Shown: positions 39,005 to 44,651 of the stretch, one piece after another
How positions within the stretch are numbered: the stretch's first letter is position 1
Layout of the letters: each line of letters begins with the position of its first letter
Assembly (NCBI GenBank): GCA_017406775.1
Contig: JAFQXV010000002.1
Location: 1-44,651 of the forward strand
Origin: Candidatus Saccharimonadota bacterium
GTDB taxonomy: Bacteria; Patescibacteriota; Saccharimonadia; Saccharimonadales; Saccharimonadaceae
Length of the DNA: 44,651 nucleotides
Reading direction: 5' to 3'
Notes under the pieces: model-generated
Databases searched by the model: none
The model's input: only the letters and a program-made list of their open reading frames with translations
Told to the model about the DNA's origin: nothing
Made by a program: the position numbers and the translations under genes

Positions 39005-39081
39005 TGGTGGGGATATGTGGACTTGAACCACAGACCTCGTCATTATCAGTGACGCGCTCTAACCAGCTGAGCTATATCCCC
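39005..39081 (-). tRNA. tRNA-Ile (GAT)
   Basis: Acceptor GGGGATA/TATCCCC, discriminator A and encoded CCA; D stem GCTC/GAGC; anticodon arm CGTCA-CTGATAA-TGACG (anticodon GAT); T arm with GTTCAAG. It lies downstream of tRNA-Ala in the same orientation. Confidence 0.95.
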
Positions 39082-39267
39082 ACATTGTAAAAGTTTGGTC
39101 GACTGTTCGCTTTGCGAAAGTCGTCCACATGACGTCGCCTCGGAAAAGAAAGTAAACTTTCTTTTCGTAGTTTCCTCATTACTTAAAATATATGCAAGCA
39201 TCTATTTTAAGTAATTCGTCATCTACTCGAAAAATGAAATAATTCATTTTTCGCTCGGCTCCTAGTG
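39082..39267. repeat. Series of four stem-loops between two tRNA genes
   Basis: GACT-TTCGC/GCGAA-AGTC (near 39101-39122), GAAAAGAAAG/CTTTCTTTTC (near 39143-39166), ATTACTTAAAATA/TATTTTAAGTAAT (near 39178-39215) and CGAAAAATGAA/TTCATTTTTCG (near 39228-39253). They fill the 186-base gap. They may be processing signals of the tRNA precursor. Confidence 0.55.
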
Positions 39268-39344
39268 TGGTGGAGTAACTGGGACTCAAACCCAGGACCT
39301 CTGCCTTGCAAAGGCAGCGCTCTAATCAGCTGAGCTATTACCCC
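39268..39344 (-). tRNA. tRNA-Ala (TGC)
   Basis: Acceptor GGGGTAA/TTACTCC with the G3-U70 pair that identifies tRNA-Ala, discriminator A and encoded CCA; anticodon arm CTGCC-TTTGCAA-GGCAG (anticodon TGC). First gene of an Ala-Ile pair, normally found in the 16S-23S spacer but here separate from rRNA. Confidence 0.95.
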
Positions 39345-41673: not shown

Positions 41674-41955
41674 TCACATATTGAACAAATCTGCGTGCGA
41701 GCCGGTGTCGATTAAAGTTAGAACTAAGATATCATCCCGGATTTCATATACTAACAGCCAGTCTGGATTGATATGACATTCTCGATATTTCTTAAACTGA
41801 CCCTTTAAAGCATGGTCCTTGTACTTAATGTCTAACTTCTTTCCATTCCGTAATAATTCTACAACTATTTGCAATTCTTCTTTCTTGAGCCCACGTTTTT
41901 GCATCTGTTTGTAATTCTTTTTAAATTTGCTGGTCGCTTGTAGGCTATATTTCAT
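41674..41955 (-). CDS. YafQ/RelE-family mRNA interferase toxin
   Basis: A 93-residue basic protein with the RelE/YafQ fold pattern: SKFKKNYKQMQKRG, ALKGQFKKYRECHINPDWLLVYEI and LTLIDTGSHADLF. The catalytic-type residues are present in CHINPDW and in the C-terminal TGSHADLF. It would cut mRNA on the ribosome when free of its antitoxin. Its ATG overlaps the antitoxin stop (ATGA), the standard arrangement. Confidence 0.9.
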   Translation of the reverse strand: MKYSLQATSKFKKNYKQMQKRGLKKEELQIVVELLRNGKKLDIKYKDHALKGQFKKYRECHINPDWLLVYEIRDDILVLTLIDTGSHADLFNM

Positions 41956-42236
41956 TCTGTCTCCATCGCCGCCCAGAATTCTTCAGACGAATCATATGTT
42001 GGGGTATTTGGATCTTTTGCCATTGCTTTTGCCTCTTTTATCGCTTCTAGAAGTTCTTCGGTAGGTTGCGGTTTCTTGATACGGAAAGGAATACTGCCAG
42101 TATTGACACATTGTTTCAAAAACATATTCACGGCACCAGACATACTGGTTCCAAGTTCTTCAAAAAGCTCGTTGGCCTCTTCCTTGGTCTTTTTATCTAC
42201 TCTAATTTGGATTGGTATCGTGGTGCTTGTACTCAT
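41952..42236 (-). CDS. DinJ/RelB-family antitoxin
   Basis: A 94-residue protein with an N-terminal ribbon-helix-helix (TTIPIQIRVDKKTKEEANELFEELGTSMSGAVNMFLKQ), which forms the DNA-binding dimer, and a C-terminal tail (SSEEFWAAMETE) that would wrap the toxin. It should repress its own promoter through the inverted repeat at 42265-42306. The ATG at 42236, with AAAAGGAA upstream, is preferred to the frame start at 42263, which lies too near the promoter. Confidence 0.88.
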   Translation of the reverse strand: MSTSTTIPIQIRVDKKTKEEANELFEELGTSMSGAVNMFLKQCVNTGSIPFRIKKPQPTEELLEAIKEAKAMAKDPNTPTYDSSEEFWAAMETE

Positions 42237-42264
42237 ATTATTCCTTTTCATTGTTTGACTCAAT

Positions 42265-42341: not shown

Positions 42342-42971
42342 TTAACTTCTAATGAGCATATCACTAGACAGCATGTTTTTAATTCTCTCTGGATATCCAT
42401 TAGTTTTCTTGTCCCAACTACTGACATACACGGAAAGAATATACCTAGTAGCTTCATCTTCTGAGCGACCGGACGGTTCTCTATTTTTACCCCAATCACA
42501 TTGAAAAGGTAAATTACTTCCATTTGGGCGTAATTCTTTAATTCTTTTAAGCGAGGTCCAAAAGATATCGCTCGTATCATTTTTATTGACTATAAGAAAA
42601 TAATAATCGTATCCGTATCTTAAATTCTCGGCAAGCATCTCGTTAAAACTATCCCAATCAATCGGCATATCCTTAATCCCGGTTAATGCGTACCCCATTC
42701 CGATTTTTGAGGAAAGATTATCTGCTGCTCCATTATTGAGGTAGGACACCTTCACGTTAACATATATTTCTTGGTTGTTTTTCCGAAAACCAAAATCATA
42801 CCATGACCTGATATTCGGGACATCAATTTCTTTTGGATATTTTTTCCTTAATAGATTAATAATTTGATCTTCATTGGCGATCGAATTAACTCGCCCATCA
42901 TTACTTGATGCTACTAGAATGAGACTTTCTAACGATAAATAATTGACCATTTCATCTAAATAGTGTTCCAT
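42342..42971 (-). CDS. Type II restriction endonuclease (EcoRV-like fold, putative)
   Basis: A 209-residue protein. The segment SWYDFGFRKNNQEIYVNVKVSYLN fits a PD-(D/E)xK core with Asp59 and N-x-K (72-74), and its surroundings resemble the region around Asp74, Asp90 and Lys92 of EcoRV as I remember it. Asn at the second acidic position is unusual and could change or abolish activity. It follows the methyltransferase gene with a 20-base overlap, so the pair forms a restriction-modification operon and this is the expected nuclease. The recognition sequence is unknown. Confidence 0.7.
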   Translation of the reverse strand: MEHYLDEMVNYLSLESLILVASSNDGRVNSIANEDQIINLLRKKYPKEIDVPNIRSWYDFGFRKNNQEIYVNVKVSYLNNGAADNLSSKIGMGYALTGIKDMPIDWDSFNEMLAENLRYGYDYYFLIVNKNDTSDIFWTSLKRIKELRPNGSNLPFQCDWGKNREPSGRSEDEATRYILSVYVSSWDKKTNGYPERIKNMLSSDMLIRS

Positions 42972-44091
42972 CTATCGGTGCCTCCTGTAATGATTTTTGA
43001 GAAAACATATATCTACCTCCGGTCATAAACCCAAGTTTTTGCCAATCAACCTCATTTAAACGAGAAACTGCATTTTCAAGATTGATGTTTTCTTTGGGAA
43101 ATAGAGCCAAGATGGAGCCGTCCCATTTTTTGCATTTGTTTAGGAAAAAAGGGTTATTAAGTCTTGTCCTACAGTTCACATATATTCTCTCCCTTCTCTC
43201 TTCAAAATTGACTGGCCTGCCCCACATAAACCAGTTTGTCTCGTCGAATTTTTTTATTTTTCTACTGATTAATGTCTCTTTGTATTTTTCGAGTTCTGGT
43301 GAATACTGCTGATAAATAAGTTTTCTTAGCTCCCCTGTCTTTCGTGTTTTCGAGCAAACAAATTCCTCTCCCTTTTCGCTAACAAAAAACGCATCTGCAC
43401 CACTAACGGCCCCAACTTTAATATCAAAGAAATCCCCAATTCTGTTACTAACACCTTCACCAACAAACGATATAATTCCGTTATTGATTACACTAATTAA
43501 TTCTCCATCTAAAGTTGTTGTCTTCCTGCTAAAATTGTCTTTTTCGTACCTAAAAATGCAGATGTTTGGACACGCATCTTCGAAGAACTTCTCGTCTCCA
43601 TAGTCATAATAATGAGTGATTGTGCCGTTCTTGAACAGTAGTTCATTGACATCTTTAGCTGATGTTTGTTTGATAAATTCTCTTGGAACAATAAATATTA
43701 ATTCTCCGTGAGCCCTAAGGTGATGAAAACATTTTTCTATAAAGTATATATAAAGGTTAGCTTGCACTTTGATGCGTGTATTTTTTGGTTTTTTAAAAAG
43801 CGAATTATCAACATAGGGTGGATTACCGATAATGGTATCGAATTTCTCTTCCGTTCCATAATCGAAGAAGTCCATTATTAAAACATCATTGTCATGAACT
43901 ACTGTTTTATCTTTTTCTATAAACACTGATTCGTTGTTTTTTAATTCTTTAAATGCACCAGCACCACAAGATGGTTCGAGCAGTCGGCCCTTGTTTTTGA
44001 TTAAGGAAATACACTCCTTAACAAGTTTCTTTGGCGTAAAAAATTGGCCATAGCGTTGCCGATGAGTGATTTCGCCGTTTCTATCAATCAT
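42952..44091 (-). CDS. Adenine-specific DNA methyltransferase of a type II R-M system
   Basis: A 379-residue N6-adenine methyltransferase. Gamma-class order: RYGQFFTP, SAM motif LLEPSCGAGAF (37-47), acidic motif near IEKD, catalytic NPPY (90-93), then GELIFIVPREFIKQ. The long C-terminal part (about 200-379) is the likely target-recognition domain, as in TaqI/HincII-type enzymes. The ATG at 44091 with GGGAG upstream is preferred to the frame start at 44130. It protects host DNA from the nuclease encoded next. Confidence 0.9.
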   Translation of the reverse strand: MIDRNGEITHRQRYGQFFTPKKLVKECISLIKNKGRLLEPSCGAGAFKELKNNESVFIEKDKTVVHDNDVLIMDFFDYGTEEKFDTIIGNPPYVDNSLFKKPKNTRIKVQANLYIYFIEKCFHHLRAHGELIFIVPREFIKQTSAKDVNELLFKNGTITHYYDYGDEKFFEDACPNICIFRYEKDNFSRKTTTLDGELISVINNGIISFVGEGVSNRIGDFFDIKVGAVSGADAFFVSEKGEEFVCSKTRKTGELRKLIYQQYSPELEKYKETLISRKIKKFDETNWFMWGRPVNFEERRERIYVNCRTRLNNPFFLNKCKKWDGSILALFPKENINLENAVSRLNEVDWQKLGFMTGGRYMFSQKSLQEAPIDGTLFR

Positions 44092-44123
44092 GGTCTCCCT
44101 TCCCCATAGACCACAATCGAAAA

Positions 44124-44143
44124 GTGACACCTTGCGGTGCCAC
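44124..44143 (-). promoter_or_regulatory. Hairpin in the R-M operon leader
   Basis: GTGGCACC/GGTGTCAC with a GCA-type loop, just after a possible -10 (TATAGT) and before the methyltransferase ATG. It repeats the GACACC motif of the neighbouring terminator and may be an operator or a leader structure. Confidence 0.45.
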
Positions 44144-44154
44144 TATACTAAGCT

Positions 44155-44180
44155 AAAAAACAGGACACCGCGACGGTGTC
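44155..44180 (-). terminator. Terminator of the 44181-44316 RNA unit
   Basis: GACACCG/CGGTGTC with a TCG loop (44164-44180), then CTG and six T on the minus strand. Three bases are shared with the outer stem of the RNA. Confidence 0.75.
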
Positions 44181-44316
44181 AATAACGTTTTTCCGCACTC
44201 AGACCAGTTAAGATCTAAATGTTTCGCGCGATGCCCTGATTGATAATCTCAACTGTAACAACGCGCAAAGCTAGTGCGGTTCGTAGTCTAAGTACGGATA
44301 TTAAATTGTTATTGAC
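44155..44316 (-). ncRNA. Novel structured RNA candidate, about 160 bases
   Basis: From TGGTATAAT (44323-44331) to a terminator. Nested perfect stems: GTCAATAAC/GTTATTGAC (44308-44316 with 44178-44186), CCGCACT/AGTGCGG (44273-44279 with 44193-44199), GCGCG/CGCGC plus TTT/AAA (44262-44269 with 44222-44230) and TTGA/TCAA at the tip (44240-44252). This makes one long rod with internal loops, similar in size and outline to 6S RNA. There is no ORF. It lies between the 16S terminator and the restriction-modification operon. Confidence 0.6.
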
Positions 44317-44322
44317 GATTTA

Positions 44323-44331
44323 ATTATACCA
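44323..44331 (-). promoter_or_regulatory. Extended -10 promoter of the RNA candidate
   Basis: TGGTATAAT on the minus strand, directly downstream of the 16S terminator T-run. Confidence 0.65.
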
Positions 44332-44533: not shown

Positions 44534-44540
44534 AAAGGAG
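44495..44540 (-). repeat. 16S 3'-end direct repeat, intact copy
   Basis: Matches the remnant at 41600-41645 in the same orientation at 40 of 46 bases. The two copies enclose the toxin-antitoxin and restriction-modification genes. Confidence 0.8.
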
Positions 44541-44651
44541 GTAATCCATCCACACGTTCTCGTACGGATGCCTTGTTACGACTTAACCCCAATCATCTCC
44601 CCCACCTTAGGCCGACGAATCGGACTTCGGGTGTTGGTGACTCTCATGGTT
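44534..44651 (-). rRNA. rrs: 16S ribosomal RNA, 3' end (partial)
   Basis: The last 118 bases of 16S run off the right edge. On the minus strand: AACCATGAGAGTCACCAACA at the edge, then GGGGTTAAGTCGTAACAAGG and GGATTACCTCCTTTCT, which holds a standard anti-Shine-Dalgarno CCTCCTTT. The spacer that follows ends at a terminator without 23S, so the ribosomal RNA genes are not linked on this side. Confidence 0.97.

Follow-up and report, generated by a model that had tools for sequence, protein, structure and literature searches.

A candidate riboswitch-like attenuator family in the 5' leaders of restriction-modification and envelope genes of Saccharibacteria

On the minus strand of a Saccharibacteria contig, a short, structured sequence separates a 16S rRNA gene (3' end at 44534) from a type II restriction-modification gene pair and raises the question of whether it encodes a free RNA or the regulatory 5' leader of the genes that follow it. 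The window, by which we mean the whole stretch of DNA analyzed, is this complete contig of 44,651 bases, which comes from a 720-kb genome that is 99.6% complete. A sequence-only reading had described here a rod-shaped RNA with its own promoter and terminator, either a relative of 6S RNA or a regulatory or defense-linked RNA. In the minus-strand direction, a G+C-rich hairpin with a T run (at ~44370 to 44340) follows the 16S rRNA 3' end, and then come the extended -10 element TGGTATAAT, a rod of ~160 nucleotides (nt), a terminator and, 65 nt on, the start of an Eco57I-type methyltransferase gene (Table 1). The nearest named record to this methyltransferase is from Candidatus Saccharibacteria isolate RGIG5889 from sheep jejunum (96% identity). 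The gene that overlaps the end of the window's methyltransferase gene is probably the cognate restriction endonuclease; family searches with this putative nuclease gave no match, and a similar gene follows the homologous methyltransferase gene in Helicobacter (L169). Directly 3' of the operon is a RelB/DinJ antitoxin and RelE/YafQ toxin pair (41674 to 42263, minus strand). The tRNA-Ala and tRNA-Ile genes (39005 to 39344) lie ~5 kb from the 16S end (16S, 44534 to 44651), with the restriction-modification and toxin-antitoxin genes in between, and a 23S rRNA gene is absent from the window; the rRNA genes seem to be unlinked or interrupted at this locus. In the phage and plasmid collections searched, there is no DNA similar to the element.

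The promoter, the stems, and the six-T terminator named by the sequence-only reading are all present on the minus strand. The RNA from 44320 to 44155 has a calculated folding energy of -54.2 kcal/mol (z = -4.85), and none of 200 dinucleotide shuffles was equally stable. The 9-pair outer stem (P1), the 7-pair stem, and the 5-pair stem that had been described can all be found, but the best second stem of the minimum-energy rod is different: the AGTGCGG strand pairs with the longer CCGTACTTAGACTAC, and CCGCACT is an alternative partner of that same strand. A second arm complementary to the P2 3' strand is likewise found in the relatives G003, G038, L066, and L070. The earlier observation that the outer stem and the terminator share three bases (GAC, 44180 to 44178), and compete in part, was also correct; to this we add a second, long-range partner for the terminator 3' arm at 44238 to 44227. 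In a scan of the region, terminator-like sites were no more numerous than in shuffled sequences, so the case rests on comparison and not on a single sequence.

Table 1. Features of the leader RNA and of the genes downstream of it, in window coordinates
Feature	Position	Strand	Basis or remark
Extended -10 promoter TGGTATAAT	44323..44331	-	Sequence; TGNTANNNT at the same place in 70/81 members
P1 5' strand GTCAATAAC	44308..44316	-	Sequence, fold, P1 covariation; 44316-44308 pairs with 44186-44178 (9 pairs)
P1 3' strand GTTATTGAC	44178..44186	-	Sequence, covariation; its GAC also opens the terminator 5' arm
P2 5' strand CCGTACTTAGACTAC	44283..44297	-	Fold, covariation
Alternative P2 arm CCGCACT	44273..44279	-	Sequence; 7 pairs with AGTGCGG
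P2 3' strand GGTCTGAGTGCGG	44193..44205	-	Fold, covariation
P3 5' strand TTTGCGCG	44262..44269	-	Fold, covariation; GCGCG/CGCGC stem of 5 pairs, lengthened by adjacent pairs
P3 3' strand CGCGCGAA	44223..44230	-	Fold, covariation
Apical (predicted antiterminator) segment CAGGGCATCGCG	44227..44238	-	Complements terminator 3' arm and flank; swap 0/1000, flank 0/2000
Hairpin P4, sharing the P2 3' strand	44197..44220	-	-11.6 kcal/mol, z -2.8 in the window
Predicted attenuator terminator GACACCG-TCG-CGGTGTC, flank CTG, then TTTTTT	44155..44180	-	Hairpin 44180-44164, TTTTTT 44160-44155; helix 90% paired across the family
Second hairpin AGTGGCACCGCAAGGTGTCACT	44123..44144	-	Arms able to pair with either terminator arm in read-through RNA
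Ribosome-binding-site hairpin GGTCT-ATGGGGAAGGG-AGACC	44092..44112	-	Abuts the start codon; -10.6 kcal/mol, z -2.6
Type II adenine methyltransferase (Eco57I domain)	42952..44091	-	ATG at 44091; family search
Putative cognate restriction endonuclease	42342..42971	-	Overlaps the methyltransferase end; similar gene after the Helicobacter homologue (L169)

A BLAST search found three clear relatives within the genus. In G071 the RNA is at the same locus (99%), and in G003 (82%) and G038 it lies at other genomic places, 5' of EcoRI-family methyltransferase genes (assigned by Pfam in the case of G038). The outer-stem strands differ on both sides, being GTCAATAAC/GTTATTGAC in the window, GTCTATAAC/GTTATAGAC in G003, and GTCAATTAC/GTAATTGAC in G038. 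When 174 genomes of the genus were searched with a covariance model built on these four sequences (R1), 42 had a match. A second model, built on 28 members (R2), was run on 392 genomes of the window's order and matched 94 of them, which belong to 32 genera and contain as many as 7 copies each. Because weak R1 scores (32 to 39 bits) also occur on the opposite strand of true elements, where R2 gives no such matches, we distrusted R1 scores in this range unless they were accompanied by R2 and by context. Nearly all matches in a phylum-wide sample are in the window's order; four genomes from other classes or families of the phylum have one leader-like match each (L162, L163, L164, and L165), possibly as a result of horizontal transfer. 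These family data come from draft contigs, with rough E-values and mechanically called start codons. The window's genome (G000, contig C1) has a second, weaker leader copy (L118:313-468, minus strand) before a gene with a signal-peptide-like N terminus; by eye, its apical segment complements its own terminator 3' arm with one mismatch. Elsewhere, a LOOT RNA (RF03000; L152:2035-2152) lies ~1.1 kb from a leader member. At the element itself, in the window or in member loci, there is no Rfam match above the gathering threshold, and a permissive scan of the window (E up to 10) gave only weak matches, of which the aligned ones fell largely on the neighboring rRNA-terminator hairpin. We found no description of such a leader in the open-access literature. 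Apparently, this is a large leader family of Saccharibacteria that has so far gone undescribed.

Across 73 members, the four modeled helices contain 92.8% standard pairs, compared with 30 to 42% in slid controls, and changes on both sides are seen at 32 of 33 pairs; the alignments (A3 to A6), including the one used for this count, were fitted to the model. In an alignment-free comparison, which ignores relatedness, the P1 match is 26.5 for a member's own strands and 12.8 for swapped strands (0/1000). The compensatory changes in relatives that the sequence-only reading had named as a check are therefore found, and together with the fold statistics they show that this RNA, with its own predicted promoter and terminator, is real and is more than a chance hairpin.

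The pairing between the P3 segment (CAGGGCATCGCG in the window) and the terminator 3' arm is absent from the covariance model and was found by a swap test, in which the match is 27.3 for a member's own arm and 19.5 for swapped arms (0/1000, relatedness again ignored). In addition, the three bases after the terminator 3' arm covary with the bases adjacent to the segment, forming 2.64 Watson-Crick pairs per three versus 1.32 (0/2000, in a swap test that ignores kinship). These bases are outside the hairpin stem as defined in our analysis, and their covariation shows that the antiterminator is more than a duplicate of that arm. The stretch from the segment to P1 contains hairpin P4, with a mean z of -2.0 over 72 members (mononucleotide shuffles). 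The predicted pairings thus exclude one another at four points: P1 versus terminator, terminator versus antiterminator, antiterminator versus P3, and P2 versus P4. Conserved, mutually exclusive terminator and antiterminator pairings of this kind are a hallmark of attenuators. By calculation, the rod and terminator states differ little in energy, and P1 may therefore be unable to block termination on its own; the antiterminator state lies ~10 kcal/mol above the rod plus terminator and would need help or kinetics in order to form. A small signal for pairing between the RNA interior and the ribosome-binding site, present in methyltransferase members only, was set aside as probably reflecting the local ribosome-binding-site hairpin and shared sequence. 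Hairpins resembling the window's second hairpin occur in several other restriction-modification members. At L091, L092, L102, L096, and L097, there are extra copies of a terminator arm between the terminator and the gene, and pairing of these with the arm is possible.

The extended -10 element stands before P1 in most members (Table 1) and there are no gaps between the two in alignment A5, so the RNA should begin with P1; the predicted +1 in the window is G44316, the first base of P1. A same-strand reading frame begins 12 to 112 nt after the terminator in 66 of 79 members, most of them with a Shine-Dalgarno-like sequence, and several of the remaining members precede methyltransferase genes that start at ATA and were missed by the start search. 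No extended -10 element was found in the 72 terminator-gene gaps checked, 21 of which are shorter than 35 nt, and so expression of the downstream gene most likely depends on read-through, as far as can be judged from promoter motifs. With respect to extended -10 elements, the sequence has the layout of an attenuator, in which a leader with a terminator separates the gene from its sole promoter. A weak -10-like TATAGT before the window's second hairpin is possibly a minor second promoter there.

These observations bear on what kind of RNA this is. A free-standing small RNA acting in trans, with the terminator as its normal end and a separate promoter for the gene, would be consistent with the complete promoter-to-terminator unit, the stable rod with its paired 5' end, and the TATAGT downstream in the window. 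However, the close same-strand gene in most members and the gaps that are short or lack an extended -10 element argue against this, and a free RNA would have no use for the conserved alternative partner of the terminator 3' arm and flank; we consider this explanation unlikely. A 6S-like RNA that binds RNA polymerase would be alike in length and in the rod shape with its internal bubble, but Rfam 6S (RF00013) has no match at gathering or even at E up to 10, and the RNA is a leader with several copies in one genome that all precede genes, and it is missing from most sampled genomes of the order. An identity with 6S RNA is therefore highly improbable. One further explanation is a constitutive leader without a regulated switch, in which the terminator merely lowers expression or the 5' structure is stabilizing. 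The calculated weakness of the antiterminator state and the lack of an evident ligand-like theme among the genes speak for it, yet many compensatory changes have preserved the long-range pairing of the terminator 3' arm and its flank, and the P1/terminator overlap and P4 have been kept as well; a plain damper would require none of the three. We give this explanation a small chance.

Two known attenuator types were also compared and rejected. A leader-peptide attenuator requires a translated short reading frame, and the window RNA, the member that was read for this, contains no ATG. The T-box (RF00230) likewise has an internal segment that competes for a terminator arm (GGCACCG-like here, the T-box there), but many leader members have no UGGN at the segment, its Rfam model matches neither the window nor the element in member loci, and the downstream genes encode methyltransferases and mostly envelope proteins instead of aminoacyl-tRNA synthetases or amino acid functions. 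Based on the comparisons above, we conclude that the restriction-modification mRNA probably begins with this RNA as its 5' leader, which would act as a riboswitch-type transcription attenuator, with translational control in addition at this operon.

The evidence for this second layer comes from the members that precede methyltransferase genes, in which the Shine-Dalgarno sequence is enclosed in a hairpin that extends up to the start codon (in the window, GGTCT-ATGGGGAAGGG-AGACC-ATG). The mean z of this hairpin is -3.15 in methyltransferase members versus -0.73 in the others (p = 1e-8), and on inspection it is absent from the four leaderless EcoRI-type genes. In six leader-linked methyltransferase genes (L064, L065, L066, L071, L134, and L137), the most plausible start is ATA, at a position where homologues have ATG or GTG and the window has ATG; in those of the six that were inspected, no other usable start is near the ATA. 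Since AUA is a poor start codon, these starts fit low translation.

Methyltransferase genes are downstream of 20 collected members, and those tested with Pfam include Eco57I, EcoRI_methylase, C-5 cytosine, and N6/N4 types. Roughly three in four of the collected members are followed by other genes, mostly for envelope proteins: a hydrophobic segment of the membrane or secreted type is found in 44 of 59 of these first genes, whereas the figure for the remaining frames of these loci is 31% (Fisher p = 1e-9). The earlier suggestion of a regulatory RNA linked to defense is thus borne out in that the RNA has the same position before other restriction-modification genes, but it is not specific to defense. 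The first downstream genes have no obvious metabolite in common. When EcoRI-type methyltransferase loci of the genus were collected by a protein-side search, the leader was directly upstream in 18 of 22, two of them with weak scores. Loci of the same methyltransferase in Helicobacter and Campylobacter have neither the leader nor the ribosome-binding-site hairpin. It thus seems that the leader is a feature of Saccharibacteria, joined to a gene pair that other phyla share.

In the model that we infer from these data for transcription start, termination, switching, signal, and purpose, RNA polymerase would start at the extended -10 promoter, and the nascent RNA would fold as the rod P1-P2-P3 or refold. 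The terminator would take its first bases from the P1 3' strand, making P1 and the full terminator mutually exclusive, and the apical segment could block the terminator by pairing with its 3' arm and with the flank as far as the U tract. This pairing would require P3 and P2 to open and P4 to take over. The off state would then consist of P3, P2, and the terminator, and the read-through state of the antiterminator and P4, or of a stabilized P1. By default the RNA is likely to be in the off state, and read-through would need a signal or kinetic trapping, as P4 can form before P2; the postulated signal that biases the choice may be a ligand, a protein, or transcription speed. At restriction-modification operons the second hairpin would hide the ribosome-binding site and throttle translation too, and the AUA start of some members would lower it further. 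The purpose may be to limit or time expression of methyltransferase and nuclease.

Such a leader has a close counterpart in ON-type transcription-terminating riboswitches, such as the pbuE adenine riboswitch, in which the P1 3' strand is common to the terminator 5' arm. As in that case, the leader lies 5' of a gene and a stabilized 5' structure should favor read-through. In contrast to pbuE, the Saccharibacteria leader has no known aptamer or ligand and is not in Rfam, it has an extra long-range partner for the terminator 3' arm, and restriction-modification and envelope genes lie downstream of it. Control of type II restriction-modification genes is known to occur by C proteins, by methyltransferase autorepression, or by antisense RNA. 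These serve the same purpose of limited or timed methyltransferase and nuclease expression, whereas the control predicted here is by an RNA attenuator in the 5' leader and a ribosome-binding-site hairpin. The cis attenuator of riboswitch-like kind is thus known, and the family, its regulon, and the link with restriction-modification appear to be new.

It seems that the refolding of a leader around a built-in stop signal decides the expression of DNA-modification and cell-surface genes. We suggest tentatively, as an idea with somewhat less than an even chance, that the leaders form a novel class of riboswitch or attenuator, present mostly in a single Saccharibacteria order, through which restriction-modification systems and surface or secreted proteins are placed under the common control of one signal, which might, for instance, report whether the cell is attached to its host or free. 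At restriction-modification operons, this class would add a further RNA lock and the AUA starts. It would be unusual for a restriction-modification system to be controlled by RNA attenuation together with a concealed ribosome-binding site. A 2024 review calls the mechanisms behind Saccharibacteria differentiation completely unknown (PMC11665869). Very little is known of gene regulation in Saccharibacteria, and the leader family offers a concrete candidate regulon together with a candidate native RNA switch.
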